Below the pieces are notes generated by a model. The model did no database searches and was not told the DNA's origin. It saw only the letters and a list, made by a program, of their open reading frames with translations. From Rhizobiales bacterium Ga0077537 (GTDB taxonomy: Bacteria; Pseudomonadota; Alphaproteobacteria; Rhizobiales; Hyphomicrobiaceae), in the NCBI GenBank assembly GCA_001464955.1, contig LNEM01000036.1, positions 62,001-126,000 on the forward strand: a DNA stretch of 64,000 nt, given 5' to 3'. Positions 22,353-43,130 of this stretch are shown here, piece after piece. The translations under genes were made by a program, and so were the position numbers. Each line of letters starts with the position of its first letter. Position 1 is the stretch's first letter.

Positions 22353-22577
22353 CATCCCCTCGCCTGCCCGTTTCCAAGGCAGTCCCATGCGACGCAGAGC
22401 CCAGGCCCGTACCGAGGCCCTGGACCGCTCACCCTCGGATTAAACGCGAAGTGTCCTAAATCTGCGTGCGTTCGATCGGCCAGATTCGCCCTGTTCCGTC
22501 CACACTCCAACAAGGTTTGGAGCGGCGGCGCGCAGTAGGGTTGCAGTCACTGCATGGCTGGTTGGCGAGGCGCCTGA
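22353..22577. other. intergenic region upstream of dctQ
   Basis: No gene is seen between the dctQ start and the dispersed repeat. The region presumably holds the dctQMP promoter on the minus strand. It contains the perfect inverted repeat at 22505-22522. Confidence 0.5.
22505..22522. promoter_or_regulatory. operator-like inverted repeat upstream of dctQ
   Basis: CTCCAA - six bases - TTGGAG is a perfect inverted repeat about 150 bp upstream of the TRAP operon start. A related 18-mer (ATCCAACAAGGGTTTGAT) lies at 19326-19343 beyond the other end of the operon. It could bind a regulator, but no regulator gene is adjacent. Confidence 0.3.
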
Positions 22578-22730
22578 TGTTCCGGCGCCGATATTTGCTT
22601 CCCTGCGCGACTTGGTCGAGAGCAATTGTCGGCGCCACAGGAACACGAGCAACTGATTGTTTCTAGTGTAGCTTTGCCTCTCACGTTTGGTGACGAGATT
22701 GACCGCAACCGGGTGCCGGACGTCAGAGGC
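22578..22730 (-). repeat. dispersed two-hairpin repeat, copy A
   Basis: This 153-bp element is 86% identical (132 of 153, no gaps) to 40208-40360 on the opposite strand. Read on the minus strand it has a first inverted repeat (22720-22730 with 22676-22686, one mismatch) and a second of 16 bp (22621-22636 with 22584-22599, two mismatches). It starts six bases after the stop of the MscS gene. Confidence 0.85.
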
Positions 22731-22736
22731 GTTACG

Positions 22737-25295
22737 CTAGGCGGTGCCGGTCCCGCCGGTGGAACGCCCGTCTGCAGACGCCTTGGCCTGTTGCTGCTCC
22801 ACCACCCGGGCCGCTGCCGCCTTGATCCAGTCGAGGTCGCGCAGATGCACGTCGACCTGATCGAACGTCTCGAGCAATCCCGCCTCACGAAACGCCTTCA
22901 GGGCGGCGATCCGGATTTCAGATGCAACCCGCCCGCTGGTATACACATCCGCAACGACGGCCCGGATGGTGAAATCGATGCCATTTGCCGAAAAGTCGTC
23001 GCAGGTGATGAACGGCGCCGGGGTCTTGAGAGCGTCCGGGTGAGCATCCGTGACAGCTCGCAGCATGGCGAGCACCGTGTCGGGGTCGGCTGTCGGTGAC
23101 ACGCGGACCTTGACCACGGCACGCCCCATCGGATTGCGATGCGTCCAGTTGAGGACGCGCCCGGTGATGAGTTCCGAGTTCGGTACGATGAGGCTGGCCC
23201 TGTCGAACGTCTCGATCTCGGTCGAGCGTACCGAGATCCGCCGCACATTGCCTTGCTCGTTGCCGACGACGATCCAGTCGCCGACCTTGATCGGGCGTTC
23301 GACGAGCAGGATCAGTCCCGACACGAAATTGTTGACGATCGATTGCAGGCCGAAGCCGATGCCGACCGACAGCGCGCCGGCGACGATCGCTAGGCTCGTG
23401 ATGTCGAGCCCGGCATAGGAAAGCGCGAGCAGAATGGCGAGACCGATGCCGGCATAGCCGATCGACGTGTCGATGGAATTCGCGATGCCGACGTCCATCC
23501 GGGCGCCGGTCAGCACGTTCTCGCGCAGCCATTTCTGGAGGATTCTCGTCAGGAACAGCAGTGTCGTGAACAGCGCGATCGCGATCAGGATGCGCGCCAG
23601 CGAAATGCGGAACTGACCGATTTCGAAGCCGAACAGAAGTGCCTTCCACCAGTCGCGGATGTCCGCGCCTGAAAACCCCCATTGCAACAACAGGACGGGG
23701 AGCGCCAGCACGCCGATCGCGAGTGTAGCGAAGACCTCCACCAGCATCGAGATCTGGCGCTTGCGCCGCGCATCGGTGAGCCCGACGGTGCGCTCGAGGA
23801 AGCCGCTGACGGCGTCGCTGTTGTCGGCCCGCCCGCGGGTCACTGCGCGCACCGCGAGATAGAAGAGCCCGCACGCCGCGAGCACTGTGCCGGAGAGCAC
23901 GACCTGATGAGCGACGAACCGTCCGAGAGCCACGTAGCCGAGCAGGGACGGCACGATGATCATCGCGGCTGTCGCGATCAGCGGCAGCTTGATCCAGAGC
24001 GGGCTCAGCAGAGTGACGGGTTTCGCCACGTAGGCGTGGCCGTTGACGGGCCGGTCAGGCCCGGTCAGCGGCACGAACGGTGTGAGCGCGAGCACAACCA
24101 GCAGCAACGCGAACGCCACGCTCGTCAGGAAGGCTTTCACCACCGTCACGGAGAGCGGCACGTAGAGGATACGGGCCAGTTCGACGAGCACCGAATCGAA
24201 GAGATAGATCGCGACGAACAGCTCGAGCAGGCGCAGGGTCCGCCGTGCAGTCTGATCATCGACGGGGATGAGGCGCCAGGCAGGCGCTCTCGGCGCCAGA
24301 CAGACCTTGAGCAGGGCGCGCGATGCGATGAACACCAGAAGTGCCGACAGCGTCGCATTGGCGAGCGCAATCCAGGGTGCGAACAGCAGATCGAGCCCGG
24401 CTAGCCCGAAGTAGATGACGAGAACCAGAACGACCGGTGCAACCATGCGCAGCGGCGCCATCCACGCGGCCTGCATGGCGCGACGGAAGAACGGAGCCGG
24501 CGGCTCGGGCCTGACGAGGTGCGGCGCGATGGTCCGCCGCGTGAACCAGGTCAGCGCCCCGAAGCTCGCGAGCGCGGCGCCGACGAGCGCCCACAGGCTG
24601 GCCTCTTTCCGGCTGGCCCACGTGAACCAGTCGTTACCATAGTATTTCAGGCGGCCGATGATTATCGGCCACTGGTTGGCGACATTCTGCCAGACGGAGG
24701 GAAGCAGCGGACTGTCGCGGCGTTCGAACAGATTGCGCGTGAACAGTTGGTACCGGATCACCGTGATCCGGTCGATGAGCTGCTTGGCGCGGACCCAGGC
24801 CAGCTCCGTCGTCTTGATTGCCCCGTCGAGCGCCGCCTTCTGTGCCGTCAGCCGTGTTCGCTCGGCTGCAACCGTCGCCGATTCGGCCGGCTGGTCCTTC
24901 GTCGGCGGCGGTCCGAGGCGCTCGATCTGCTTCTCGACTTCCTCGAGTTGCGGCCTGAGCGTCTCCGCCGTCGAGGTCGAATCGTAGATGATCCGCTCGA
25001 CTTCGGTGCGCAGCCGCGCGAGCTCGCTTTCGAGTTCCTTGAGCTGCTGGATCGATTTCTCGGCATTCTCGATGTTTCGCGCAAGCCGTTGTACGGGCTC
25101 GAGCGCTTCGGGCGGCAAGACGGGCGCCGCTGGTTCCGGAGCCGCCGTGGCGGTAGGCGCGGGCGTTGCTGCGGGAGCGGGTGGCGTCGCGGTTCCGCCG
25201 GCTTGTTGCGCCAGTGCGGTGTCGCGCCCGGTTGGGCAAGCCGACATGGCGAACAGGACGGCGAGGAAAACAACCAATATGCGCAGATGCCGCAC
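22737..25295 (-). CDS. DUF3772 / MscS family mechanosensitive ion channel protein
   Basis: An 852-residue inner membrane protein. A signal/lipoprotein-like N-terminus (FAMSAC) is followed by a Pro/Ala linker, a coiled-coil periplasmic domain (about residues 65-185, the DUF3772 region), many membrane helices (about 225-600) and the MscS pore and beta domain (about 610-810), including GIGFGLQSIVNNFVSGLILL and ERPIKVGDWI. It should act as an osmotic safety valve of the large MscK/YbiO-like class. The start is a GTG with GAGG eight bases upstream. The stop TAG lies at the edge of dispersed repeat copy A. Confidence 0.92.
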   Translation of the reverse strand: MRHLRILVVFLAVLFAMSACPTGRDTALAQQAGGTATPPAPAATPAPTATAAPEPAAPVLPPEALEPVQRLARNIENAEKSIQQLKELESELARLRTEVERIIYDSTSTAETLRPQLEEVEKQIERLGPPPTKDQPAESATVAAERTRLTAQKAALDGAIKTTELAWVRAKQLIDRITVIRYQLFTRNLFERRDSPLLPSVWQNVANQWPIIIGRLKYYGNDWFTWASRKEASLWALVGAALASFGALTWFTRRTIAPHLVRPEPPAPFFRRAMQAAWMAPLRMVAPVVLVLVIYFGLAGLDLLFAPWIALANATLSALLVFIASRALLKVCLAPRAPAWRLIPVDDQTARRTLRLLELFVAIYLFDSVLVELARILYVPLSVTVVKAFLTSVAFALLLVVLALTPFVPLTGPDRPVNGHAYVAKPVTLLSPLWIKLPLIATAAMIIVPSLLGYVALGRFVAHQVVLSGTVLAACGLFYLAVRAVTRGRADNSDAVSGFLERTVGLTDARRKRQISMLVEVFATLAIGVLALPVLLLQWGFSGADIRDWWKALLFGFEIGQFRISLARILIAIALFTTLLFLTRILQKWLRENVLTGARMDVGIANSIDTSIGYAGIGLAILLALSYAGLDITSLAIVAGALSVGIGFGLQSIVNNFVSGLILLVERPIKVGDWIVVGNEQGNVRRISVRSTEIETFDRASLIVPNSELITGRVLNWTHRNPMGRAVVKVRVSPTADPDTVLAMLRAVTDAHPDALKTPAPFITCDDFSANGIDFTIRAVVADVYTSGRVASEIRIAALKAFREAGLLETFDQVDVHLRDLDWIKAAAARVVEQQQAKASADGRSTGGTGTA

Positions 25296-39223: not shown

Positions 39224-40195
39224 GTGACAGCTCCCGCTGCACTCGCTTCGCTGGCCCGCAATCCCGTGCCGAGCGGCGCTGTCGTCGGCATATTCGATAG
39301 CCGCGACGGCATTCCATTGAGGTTTGCGCGCTGGGACGCGACCCGCGGTCCGCGGCAGGGGACGGTGTGCGTGTTTCCCGGTCGAGGCGAACCCATAGAG
39401 AAGTATTTCGAGGCGATCGCGGACCTGCGCCGCCGCGGATTTGCCGTCGCGATCCATGACTGGCGGGGGCAGGGCGCATCGGGTCGCCTGCTGGACGATC
39501 CGCAGCGGGGCCATGTCGTGAGCTTTGCCGACTACGAGGCGGACGTGCACCGCTTCATGAAGGACATCGTGCTTCCGGACTGCCCGGCGCCGTTCGTCGC
39601 GCTCGGTCACTCGATGGGTGGCAACGTTCTGATCCGCATGGCGACGGTGCAGGGCCTGTGGTTCGACCGGATCGTCCTGTCGGCGCCGATGCTCGACATC
39701 GCCCCCGATCGTCTGCCGGTGCCACCCCGGCTCGCGCGGCTTTATGCGGCCACCGCCGGTATCGGACCGACGTCACGGCTCTACGTGCCGTTCGGAAACG
39801 GTACCCCGGCCGAACTCTGCCCCTTCGAGGGGAACCCCTTCACCTCAGACCGCGAACGCTTCGAGCGCAATCGCCAGTTGGTGGAGCAGCGCCCCGATCT
39901 GGCACTTGGCTCGCCGACCAACGGTTGGCTCCGGGCCGCCTATCGCTCGTGCGACGAGATCATGGCACCGGCCTTCGCGCAGCGCGTGCGCATTCCCATG
40001 CTGCTGGTCGCGGCTGGCATGGACCGGATCGTGTCGTCGCCGGCCATCGAGACGTTCGCGAGCCGCATCAAGATCGGCGCGCGTGTCGCTCTGGCGGGCT
40101 CGATGCACGAGATCCTGCATGAGCGCGACGAGATCCGGCAGCGCTTCTGGGCCGCGTTCGACGCCTATCTCGGCACCCGCTCGCTCGCCGCCTGA
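39224..40195 (+). CDS. alpha/beta hydrolase (serine aminopeptidase S33 / lysophospholipase type)
   Basis: A 323-residue hydrolase with the nucleophile elbow GHSMGGN (Ser near residue 128), an oxyanion-type FPGRGEP segment and GWRG-like DWRGQGASGR, which are typical of the lysophospholipase/monoacylglycerol lipase group. The catalytic Asp is probably in AAGMDRIV and the His in GSMHEIL. It has no signal peptide and probably acts on lipid esters in the cytoplasm or at the membrane. The start codon at 39224 is GTG, read from the base sequence. Its stop is followed at once by dispersed repeat copy B. Confidence 0.92.
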   Translation: MTAPAALASLARNPVPSGAVVGIFDSRDGIPLRFARWDATRGPRQGTVCVFPGRGEPIEKYFEAIADLRRRGFAVAIHDWRGQGASGRLLDDPQRGHVVSFADYEADVHRFMKDIVLPDCPAPFVALGHSMGGNVLIRMATVQGLWFDRIVLSAPMLDIAPDRLPVPPRLARLYAATAGIGPTSRLYVPFGNGTPAELCPFEGNPFTSDRERFERNRQLVEQRPDLALGSPTNGWLRAAYRSCDEIMAPAFAQRVRIPMLLVAAGMDRIVSSPAIETFASRIKIGARVALAGSMHEILHERDEIRQRFWAAFDAYLGTRSLAA

Positions 40196-40207
40196 CGCTT
40201 GTGTAGC

Positions 40208-40360
40208 GCCTCTGACGTCTGGTACCCGCCTGCGGCCAGGCACGTCACCAAACGTCAGAGGCAAAGCTACACTAGAAACAATGCGTTGCTCGTATTCCTT
40301 TGGCGCCGACATTTGCTCTCGACCAAGCGGCAGTGGGAAGCAAATGCCGGCGCCGGAACA
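40208..40360 (+). repeat. dispersed two-hairpin repeat, copy B
   Basis: A 153-bp copy of the element at 22578-22730. The first inverted repeat is 18 bp (40201-40218 with 40252-40262 and 40266-40272, interrupted by AAA). The second is 16 bp with one mismatch (40302-40317 with 40339-40354). It fills nearly the whole gap between two convergent genes. Confidence 0.88.
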
Positions 40361-41827
40361 CTAGCGGAACGGCGGTTCGTCGAACGAGCGCAGCTTGCGC
40401 GAGTGAAGGCCGTCGCGCCGCTGCTTCAGCAACTCGAGGGCCTCGATGCCGATCTGGAGATGCTGGGCGACGGCGGTCTCGTAGAAGGCGTTCGCGGCCC
40501 CCGGCAGCTTGATCTCACCGTGCAGTGGCTTGTCCGAAACGCAGAGCAGCGTGCCGTAGGGCACCCGCAGCCGGAACCCCTGTGCCGCGATGGTGCCGCT
40601 TTCCATGTCGACGGCGATCGCCCGCGAGAGGTTGATCCGCCGGCGCTCCTGGGTGAAGCGCAGTTCCCAGTTGCGGTCATCGTAGGTGACGACGGTTCCG
40701 GTTCGCAGCCGCTGCTTGAGGGCGTCCCCCGATTGTCCTGTCACAAGCTGCGCTGCGTCCTGGAGCGCCACCTGCACCTCGGCCAGCGCCGGGATCGGCA
40801 CGTCCGGCGGCACCAGCGCATCGAGAATGCGATCCTGGCGGAGATACGCGTGCGCCAGCGCATAGTCGCCGATGGCCTGGCTTTCGCGCAGTCCGCCACA
40901 ATGCCCGATCATCAGCCAGCAGTTCGGCCGGATGACGGCGAGATGATCGGTGATGTTCTTCGCGTTCGACGGCCCGACCCCGATGTTGACCAGCGTCACG
41001 CCACCGCCGTCGGGGCCGGTGAGGTGGTAGGCGGGCATCTGGTAGCGGTGCCACGCCGAGCTTGCGACGAGCCCCTCGACATCGCGATCCGATGCGCCCG
41101 CCGGGATCACCACGTTGCCGGGGAGGACGAGCGTCTGGCCCGAGGGCGCATGGCGAATGCGGTCGAGCCCCATGCGGATGAACTGGTCGACGTAGCGGTG
41201 ATAATTGGTGAGCAGGATCCAGCGCTGCACGTGGCGCCAGTCGCTGCCGGTGTAGTGGACGAGGCGCCGGAGCGAGAAGTCGACGCGCACCGCATCGAAG
41301 AGCGCCAGCGGGAGCGGGCCGCCGGGCGCCACCTCGTACTGGCCATCCGCGATCTCGTCGCCGACGACGGAGAGCTGCGGCGTCGCGAAATGCCGGGCAA
41401 GCTCGGCAGCCGTCACGCCCGCCCGTGACAGTTCCTCGATCCGCTCGAGGACATAAGGATAGGGGATTTCCTGATCGCTGACATCGACCTCGAGCACCGC
41501 GCCGTAGTCGGAGACGAGCGGCTCGAGCTGCTCGAGGAGATAACTGCGGAATTCTGCCGGATGCGTGACTGTGGTCTCGTAGACGCCCGGCCGCTGCAGT
41601 TTCGCGTAAGCGCGCCGTGTCGGTCGCGGCGGTACGGCCTCACCGGGATAGTGCACCCGGAGCACCGGGTAGCGGAACGCGCGACGCTCGTCCGGCGTCG
41701 GCGCGATCCGCTGCGCCAGATAGCGATCGAGCGCTGATGTGAGGCTGCGGGTGGCCGCGCCGTAGCTGGCCGTGAGGCGTGCAACGGCATCGGCGGGGGA
41801 AAGCAGTTTGTCGGCGCTTGTCGTCAT
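40361..41827 (-). CDS. amn: AMP nucleosidase
   Basis: Hydrolyses AMP to adenine and ribose 5-phosphate in purine salvage. The protein (488 aa) has the N-terminal AMP-nucleosidase domain (about 15-170, RFYPVLRVHYPG-type segment FRYPVLRVHYPGE) and a C-terminal purine nucleoside phosphorylase-like domain with NIGVGPSNAKNITDHLAVIRP, GHCGGLR and the catalytic motif AVDMESGTIA. The ATG at 41827 (MTTSADK) is preferred over a start at 42133, which would overlap the divergent promoter. The stop TAG abuts dispersed repeat copy B. Confidence 0.95.
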   Translation of the reverse strand: MTTSADKLLSPADAVARLTASYGAATRSLTSALDRYLAQRIAPTPDERRAFRYPVLRVHYPGEAVPPRPTRRAYAKLQRPGVYETTVTHPAEFRSYLLEQLEPLVSDYGAVLEVDVSDQEIPYPYVLERIEELSRAGVTAAELARHFATPQLSVVGDEIADGQYEVAPGGPLPLALFDAVRVDFSLRRLVHYTGSDWRHVQRWILLTNYHRYVDQFIRMGLDRIRHAPSGQTLVLPGNVVIPAGASDRDVEGLVASSAWHRYQMPAYHLTGPDGGGVTLVNIGVGPSNAKNITDHLAVIRPNCWLMIGHCGGLRESQAIGDYALAHAYLRQDRILDALVPPDVPIPALAEVQVALQDAAQLVTGQSGDALKQRLRTGTVVTYDDRNWELRFTQERRRINLSRAIAVDMESGTIAAQGFRLRVPYGTLLCVSDKPLHGEIKLPGAANAFYETAVAQHLQIGIEALELLKQRRDGLHSRKLRSFDEPPFR

Positions 41828-42029
41828 GAGGGCCCGTTCTCCCCGCAGTCGAGATTGCTCTTGCCGATCGCGAGTCTTCTGTAGCACGCTTGGACTTGGG
41901 TAGAAGCGATCGTCCATGAAAGTCAGCGACGCTCGCACACGCCCGATGTCCGGAACCGATCGACGGGATGAACCGTCGGCAACGAAGGTCCGGATGTTGG
42001 AGGAAGTTCGCCAGGGAGTTGATTGGGTC

Positions 42030-43130
42030 ATGACAAGACAGACAGCGTTCCGGTCCGCCGGAGCGGCAGCCATGCTCGCGGTGTGCGTCGGTGCCGTCGC
42101 GCCGGGCGACGCGCGAGCCGCCGAGAAGCTCATCTACGCCTCGTACATTTCCGAGGTCTACTCGGCGAGCAAGACCGACATCTGGCTCATGAACGAGATC
42201 GAGAAGCGGTCGAACGGCGAGATCAAGTTCGAGAAGTACTGGTCGAGTTCGCTGCTGAAGGCGGCTGACCTCTTTCCGAGCCTGCGCAGCGGCGCGGCCG
42301 ACGTGGTGCTGGGGGCGCCTGCGGCCTACAATGTCAAAGAGTACCCGCTCGCCAACATCGTCATGCCTTTCATGACGACCCGCGGCGACGCCATGACGCT
42401 CGCCTGGCGCGACCTCTACAAGAACAACGCCGCTTTCCGGAACGAGTTCGAGAGCAAGGGCGCGAAAGTCCTCTATTCGGTCGCCTGGGCCGAGAACACC
42501 GTCTGGTCCAAGAAGCCGATCGCCAAGGTCGACGATCTGAAGGGCCTCAAGATCCGCTCGGTGCCGACCATCTCCGACGCGGTCAGGAAGCTCGGCGCGA
42601 CGCCGGTCGCCCTCGCCTGGCCGGATGGCCTTGAAGGTCTGCAGCGGGGCGTCGTCGATGCCATGTCATCGGCCCCGTTCGACTCGGCCGTCCACGGCAG
42701 CGCGCAGGATGTGGCCAAGCACGGCACCGATCTCGGCGGCACGGGCATCTTCGCGATGGCCACCATCGCCATCAGCATGGACCGCTACAGGAAGCTGAGC
42801 GAGAAGCATCGCAAGATCATCGACGAAGTCGCGGCCGAGGCACCAGATCAGGGGATCAAGCTGCTCGAGGCGAGCGTCGACGCGGCCGTCGAGAAGCTCT
42901 GCGGCATGAAGGAGAAGCTGATCATCTCCAACTTCTCTGACGCCGACAAGGCGACGGTGCAGAAGGTTGCCGCTGCCGGCGTCCAGGAAGACTGGCTGAA
43001 GCGCGTCAAGGCCGAGACGAAGGCGGATGGCGCTGCCATGATGGCGGAGTTCCAGGGCTACCTGAAGGCCTACGAGGCGAAGAGCACTTACAAGCCGGGC
43101 TTCGAGCGTTACGCGGCGAAGTGCAAATGA
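42030..43130 (+). CDS. TRAP transporter substrate-binding protein DctP (second system)
   Basis: A 366-residue periplasmic binding protein. A signal peptide (about residues 1-31, ending DARA-AE) precedes a DctP fold with FEKYWSSSLLKAADLFPSLR, GAADVVLGAPAAYN and the conserved VDDLKGLKIRS region, with an Arg at the carboxylate-binding position. The ATG at 42030 (MTRQTAF) gives a normal signal peptide; an earlier ATG at 41916 is not supported. Followed by its two permease genes, so it heads the dctPQM unit. The substrate is unknown and differs in sequence from TRAP system 1. Confidence 0.93.
   Translation: MTRQTAFRSAGAAAMLAVCVGAVAPGDARAAEKLIYASYISEVYSASKTDIWLMNEIEKRSNGEIKFEKYWSSSLLKAADLFPSLRSGAADVVLGAPAAYNVKEYPLANIVMPFMTTRGDAMTLAWRDLYKNNAAFRNEFESKGAKVLYSVAWAENTVWSKKPIAKVDDLKGLKIRSVPTISDAVRKLGATPVALAWPDGLEGLQRGVVDAMSSAPFDSAVHGSAQDVAKHGTDLGGTGIFAMATIAISMDRYRKLSEKHRKIIDEVAAEAPDQGIKLLEASVDAAVEKLCGMKEKLIISNFSDADKATVQKVAAAGVQEDWLKRVKAETKADGAAMMAEFQGYLKAYEAKSTYKPGFERYAAKCK

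Follow-up and report, generated by a model that had tools for sequence, protein, structure and literature searches.

The question raised by this locus is why a non-coding repeat with two hairpins lies directly against the stop codon of an MscS-type channel gene in Rhizobiales bacterium Ga0077537. The window considered here is the whole 64,000-nt stretch that was analyzed, positions 62001-126000 of contig C36 in the 4.84-Mb host genome (G000:C36:62001-126000). In the initial annotation the repeat was taken to form the 3' end of the channel transcript. The dispersed, non-coding, two-hairpin repeat described there is retained here, but a general role as a transcript end is not, and mobility, a CTAG target and nested arrays had been overlooked. 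Altogether, the repeat is very probably a non-autonomous mobile DNA element of ~163 bp (a 159-bp core plus one CTAG), which inserts at CTAG and leaves a CTAG on each side. This view is built on its dispersal, a clean empty site, recent amplification in a relative, nested and tandem insertion, insertion at TAG stop codons, and paired, bulged hairpins.

The repeat unit and its paired hairpins

Positions 22578-22730 share 132 of 153 letters with the reverse complement of 40208-40360 (BLAST E 4e-48), as had been counted by hand. The annotated location was right, but the extent was slightly short: when host copies are aligned with their flanks, the unit begins CTAGTGTAGC and finishes GGAACACTAG, and comparison of copies gives 167 bp for each window copy (22574-22740 and 40198-40364), consisting of the 159-bp core and a terminal 4-mer at each end. 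Outside the CTAGTGTAGC..GGAACACTAG unit, the flanks do not match. The features are as follows.

22574..22740, minus strand: twin-hairpin copy 1; core 22578-22736, terminal 4-mers CTGA/TCAG and CTAG; aligned with ~10 other host copies and ~160 copies from relatives
22663..22740, minus strand: hairpin A of copy 1, CTAGCGTAAC...GCTACACTAG; outer stem, bulge of 3 nt (AAA) on the inner arm, inner stem and loop, from alignment, folding and covariation
22650..22662, minus strand: 13-nt spacer of copy 1, AAACAATCAGTTG; spacer length kept across families
22574..22649, minus strand: hairpin B of copy 1, CTCGTGTTCC...GGAACATCAG, from alignment, folding and covariation
22737..22740, no strand: terminal CTAG of copy 1, containing the TAG stop of the MscS-type gene (22737-22739, minus strand)
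22737..25295, minus strand: neighboring MscS-type mechanosensitive channel gene, 852 aa (PF00924, PF12607, PF21082)
40198..40364, plus strand: twin-hairpin copy 2; core 40202-40360, terminal CTTG and CTAG, from copy alignment
40198..40275, plus strand: hairpin A of copy 2, from alignment, folding and covariation
40276..40288, plus strand: 13-nt spacer of copy 2, AAACAATGCGTTG, from copy alignment
40289..40364, plus strand: hairpin B of copy 2, from alignment, folding and covariation
40361..40364, no strand: terminal CTAG of copy 2, containing the TAG stop of the AMP nucleosidase gene (40361-40363, minus strand)
40361..42133, minus strand: neighboring AMP nucleosidase gene, 590 aa (PF10423, PF01048)
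39224..40195, plus strand: neighboring alpha/beta hydrolase gene, 323 aa (PF12146), with its stop two bases before copy 2

The unit is laid out as CTAG–hairpin–CTAG–13-nt spacer–CTAG–hairpin–CTAG over ~167 bp, the CTAG bounding each hairpin being intact or decayed. Hairpin A spans ~78 nt and is followed by the 13-nt spacer and by hairpin B of 76 nt, and both hairpins, already recognized in the initial annotation, are borne out by copy alignment and folding. Each contains a 10-bp outer stem that includes CTAG, an inner stem of 15-16 bp and a loop, together with a bulge of 3-4 nt on the inner arm, that is, the arm facing the spacer. Moreover, hairpin A is homologous to the reverse complement of hairpin B, which a profile of A matches, and the element is bounded by terminal inverted repeats, CTAGTGT..ACACTAG. 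Pairing is kept in 93.6% of the cells among 54 diverse copies; double-change cells number 131, compared with 37 in shuffles, and the pairs holding them 22, compared with 10.5. Compensatory changes keep the stems, so that substitutions preserve the pairing. The window copies also fold better than shuffles, with z scores of -3.4 as RNA and -7.0 as DNA. The stems of the twin hairpins are conserved paired structures.

No credible coding frame is present in the element, in agreement with the earlier view that it encodes no convincing protein. It is matched by no curated Rfam model, and by nothing in the phage collection and viral contigs searched. Many copies have decaying ends, CTAG is found at both ends in 84 of 161 copies, GTAG is rare, and the two terminal 4-mers of one copy are often unequal. 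The decay of CTAG is lopsided, with right ends changing to CGAG and never to CTCG, and left ends to CTCG or CGAG.

Dispersal, insertion at CTAG and stop codons

The genome-wide search proposed with the initial annotation yields more copies both in the host, where the two window copies belong to a set of ~11, and in related genomes. Within the host's family, 23 of 103 genomes match, and none of 24 sampled genomes from other families of the same order does. Recent amplification is seen in Hyphomicrobium sp. FW.3.32 (G125), where the spacer of one subfamily is found 98 times within two mismatches (64 of them exact), copy identity reaches 98%, and copies often lie at contig ends, as near-identical repeats would. 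When a pattern of 21 specified bases was searched in named genomes, the matches listed were to Hyphomicrobium, Hyphomicrobiaceae and alphaproteobacterial MAGs; two of the MAGs among these listed matches are labeled Devosia, and one of the two matches a host-family genome. More distant relatives, having a like layout but other stem sequences, occur on replicons of Ochrobactrum, Martelella, Agrobacterium, Rhizobium, Aminobacter and Sphingobium (L391-L396). A generic structural scan likewise recovers several families with one layout (TGTAGC/TGTTCC, TGTGGC/TGTCCC, TGGGGC/TGGCCT and others), in which the spacer is nearly constant at 13 nt. By these comparisons, the element is part of a multi-family group found across alphaproteobacteria. 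It can tentatively be proposed that this group is an alphaproteobacteria-wide superfamily defined by architecture rather than sequence, in which one kind of enzyme would read the structure and home to CTAG, stop codons would be recurrent landing sites, and each insertion would recreate the next site.

Direct evidence for insertion is provided by the comparison of filled and empty loci. A filled site in G029 reads GTGGCCA-CTAG-[element]-CTAG-ATAGCGAC, and its empty counterpart contains a single CTAG, as GCC-CTAG-ATAGCGGC in G065 and GTGGCCA-CTAG-ATAGCGGC in G006. In this single clean case, one CTAG is present before and two after, which would fit duplication of TA or of CTAG as well as a CTAG brought in with the element. 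Two host loci (C30:1100441 and C30:1063198) are also without the element in both congeners; these empty sites are too diverged for the junction to be read, and the closer set of G029, G065 and G006 was used instead. A young copy with 98% identity (L263) inserted at the CTAA terminus of an older unit and has CTAA on both sides, which points to target duplication. The case for true duplication leans mainly on this copy, since the two terminal 4-mers of a copy are often unequal; most non-CTAG ends look like decay.

Copies also insert into the CTAGs of other copies and form arrays. A two-hairpin unit of another family (TGTGGCG../TGTCCC..) interrupts one host copy (L057, G000:C30:1187450-1187776) at its internal CTAG, a copy in Hyphomicrobium sp. 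FW.3.32 is split by a unit of a third family, and in tandem units a single CTAG is common to neighbors. Another family (TGGGGCGTCGCGCCTTAATTGAC../TGGCCT..GTCGCGCCTAAATCG..) is often seen beside or inside copies carrying hairpins A and B, in mixed arrays (L111, L164, L100; Hyphomicrobium sp. FW.3.32).

The CTAG target also accounts for the position at gene ends. In both window copies, the TAG stop of a neighbor, MscS or AMP nucleosidase, lies within the terminal CTAG. The MscS stop had been placed six bases from the end of the repeat; this distance is correct for the shorter limits, but the stop lies inside the element rather than beside it. In the element-free congeners G001 (TGA) and G002 (TAG), AMP nucleosidase has an unchanged last residue (..RSFDEPPFR*), and the MscS stop is at the same place in congeners, with TGA as its codon. 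Across copies, the stop coincides exactly with the TAG of the terminal 4-mer at 21 of the 88 element ends that an ORF runs up to, and other offsets inside the element are represented at most twice each. This count was made with ORFs of at least 250 codons, as 100-codon ORFs admitted spurious GC-rich frames. The peak is not the product of random truncation, because stops would then be spread among three frames. The same is seen in an independent annotation, as in Agrobacterium sp. T29 the annotated RraA CDS ends within the first CTAG of the element. CTAG is ~10-fold rarer than base composition predicts, with 20 occurrences in the window compared with 196 expected. As CTAG is rare and contains TAG, insertions often land at stop codons. 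GATC, counted in the same window, occurs 644 times for 196 expected. A gene flanking an insertion on its TAG stop would keep the stop, making such an insertion nearly harmless. Similarly, the TAG stop of an ORF next to a REP is often provided by the GTAG end of that REP (PMC3733652). Frame statistics, orthologues and the empty site together show that the presence of the element at stop codons is an effect of its insertion target, and the position of such repeats at gene ends is explained by insertions that spare the protein.

These observations bear on the view that the element is not a selfish repeat but a selected RNA or DNA structure, such as a transcript 3' end, an mRNA stabilizer or a regulatory site. 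A selected function was once proposed for CIR elements, and stems kept by covariation, strong folding (z -3.4 and -7.0) and many copies after stop codons would fit it. However, no terminator-like U-tract was found at the element, and among the 11 host copies, whose contexts were read with a simple gene caller as convergent, tandem, divergent or, for one, unclear, four lie between divergent genes. Orthologous sites without the element in congeners, many decaying ends, and arrays and nesting typical of mobile DNA also argue against selection, and the covariation could also reflect the needs of transposition. A general transcript-end role, along the lines of the initial annotation, is not supported; adjacency to stops follows from the insertion target, and selection for any such host function is improbable. 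As a by-product, a transcript extending into the element would carry a strong hairpin beyond its stop codon, which may affect some mRNAs, with no sign of selection for this effect.

Candidate mobilizing enzymes

If the element is non-autonomous, a transposase supplied in trans would recognize its terminal CTAG-TGT ends, borne by two inverted homologous hairpins, and would copy or move the unit. Among the loci examined, no longer element with the same ends was found. In the host genome, the Y1 (PF01797), IS630 and IS701 transposase families were not found. The absence of PF01797 from G000 rejects a RAYT/Y1 source within the host, the absence of PF13358 from G000, G003, G006, G024, G027 and G034 rejects mobilization of the IS630 type (as for RUP and Correia MITEs), and the absence of DDE_5 from the host and the high-copy genomes rejects the IS701 type. 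A B-like hairpin by an IS630 gene in G012 (L064) proved to be another family placed alongside.

One plausible account, still short of probable, makes the element a classical MITE whose movement depends on a DDE transposase of IS5 type or similar; this enzyme would have a YTAR-type target, and CTAG or the TA within it would be duplicated. It is short and non-coding with terminal inverted repeats (CTAGTGT..ACACTAG), its target variants include CTAA and TTAG, and a CTAA..CTAA direct repeat surrounds the 98% young copy; moreover, IS711 of Brucella uses YTAR and favors palindromic repeats (PMC2266754). However, no autonomous partner was found among the loci examined, the two DDE families searched for, IS630 (DDE_3) and IS701 (DDE_5), do not occur in the host or the high-copy genomes, and pairs of non-CTAG ends are inverted as often as direct. 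Mobilization by a single-strand HUH/Y1 transposase of IS200 or RAYT type, which would recognize CTAG and the bulged hairpins in the way that RAYTs act on REPINs, is a more doubtful alternative. The inverted pair of homologous hairpins and their conserved bulge recall bulged REPs (PMC8266576), and REP termini likewise supply TAG stops (PMC3733652). Six of the 103 family genomes carry IS200-type TnpA; four of these six bear the element (P=0.02), and those four had the highest first-look candidate counts; IS200 lies directly 3' of CTAG in all three copies with a readable left end. On the other side, the host and most element-bearing genomes have no Y1 gene, several tnpA copies are interrupted or truncated, the hairpins of IS200 look unrelated to those of the element, IS200 may merely use CTAGs supplied by the element, and the CTAA/CTAA copy fits duplication better than a Y1 right end. 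A DDE-type enzyme is tentatively placed slightly ahead of Y1 because of this copy and the inverted ends. The element is highly unlikely to be what is left of a known insertion sequence or gene, a view for which only the CTAG shared by IS200 copies speaks, as a full-length unit of constant length is conserved in many genomes, a coding frame is absent, and phages, viral contigs and Rfam gave no match.

The three IS200-type TnpA elements with a left end directly 3' of CTAG are L058 (G006:C23), L252 (G125:C62) and L257 (G068:C26), twice at the end of a twin-hairpin element, and IS200 of these genomes seems to target CTAG. The link between TnpA and copy number is weak, and because IS200 uses a CTAG target it may run in the other direction. 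The presence of IS200 at CTAG could hint at machinery in common, or else reflect hitch-hiking on CTAGs that the element supplies. Hyphomicrobium sp. FW.3.32 and Alphaproteobacteria bacterium BRH_c36, with high numbers of near-identical copies, are promising hunting grounds for the enzyme.

Comparison with known repeat systems

Several families of short palindromic repeats resemble the element in part. RIME1 of Rhizobium (Osteras 1995) is reportedly an intergenic repeat with two large palindromes; it is like the element in its palindromes but shorter, at ~106-109 bp. Bru-RS1/RS2 of Brucella are, by description, palindromic repeats attracting insertion sequences with a YTAR target (PMC2266754), and are 103-105 bp long (PMC2267715), compared with ~167 bp for the element. 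SMR-A and PATE of Haloquadratum are also short non-coding mobile repeats that enter other mobile repeats, and PATEs carry IS605-type palindromes; however, both are archaeal, SMRs insert without target duplication, and PATEs have no terminal inverted repeats, whereas the element has inverted ends (PMC3119063).

The closest likenesses are to CIR and REPIN. CIRs, or CcrM-associated intergenic repeats, are known from Caulobacter, Brucella and further alphaproteobacteria (Chen and Shapiro 2003, via PMC2229807). As described in PMC2229807, they resemble the element in being intergenic, alphaproteobacterial and non-coding, with two hairpin arms, a linker and TA termini, but are ~110 bp rather than ~167 bp and have a conserved GANTC in a loop. 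Neither window copy contains GANTC, and in the family it is present in 82 of 134 copies, mostly at the border of hairpin A and the spacer, outside the loop. A CTAG target and insertion at stop codons, both features of the element, are not mentioned for CIR in the passages considered, where the mechanism of CIR mobility is described as unknown. For such two-armed alphaproteobacterial repeats, the present data provide a defined CTAG target, exact boundaries and an empty site. REPINs and BIMEs share with the element an inverted pair of homologous hairpins with a spacer (PMC3116915), tandem clusters and, in some groups, bulged stems. However, REPIN ends are GTAG rather than CTAG, their hairpins measure 20-50 nt compared with 75-79 nt, they occur with a RAYT, which the host of the element does not have, and the constant 13-nt spacer is unlike that of REPIN/BIME. 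The two-arm architecture is thus shared, but the element departs from these kinds in length, hairpin size, GANTC content and the GTAG tag; with CIR, RIME1 and Bru-RS compared by description only, we therefore call the element a variant of the CIR/REPIN kind.
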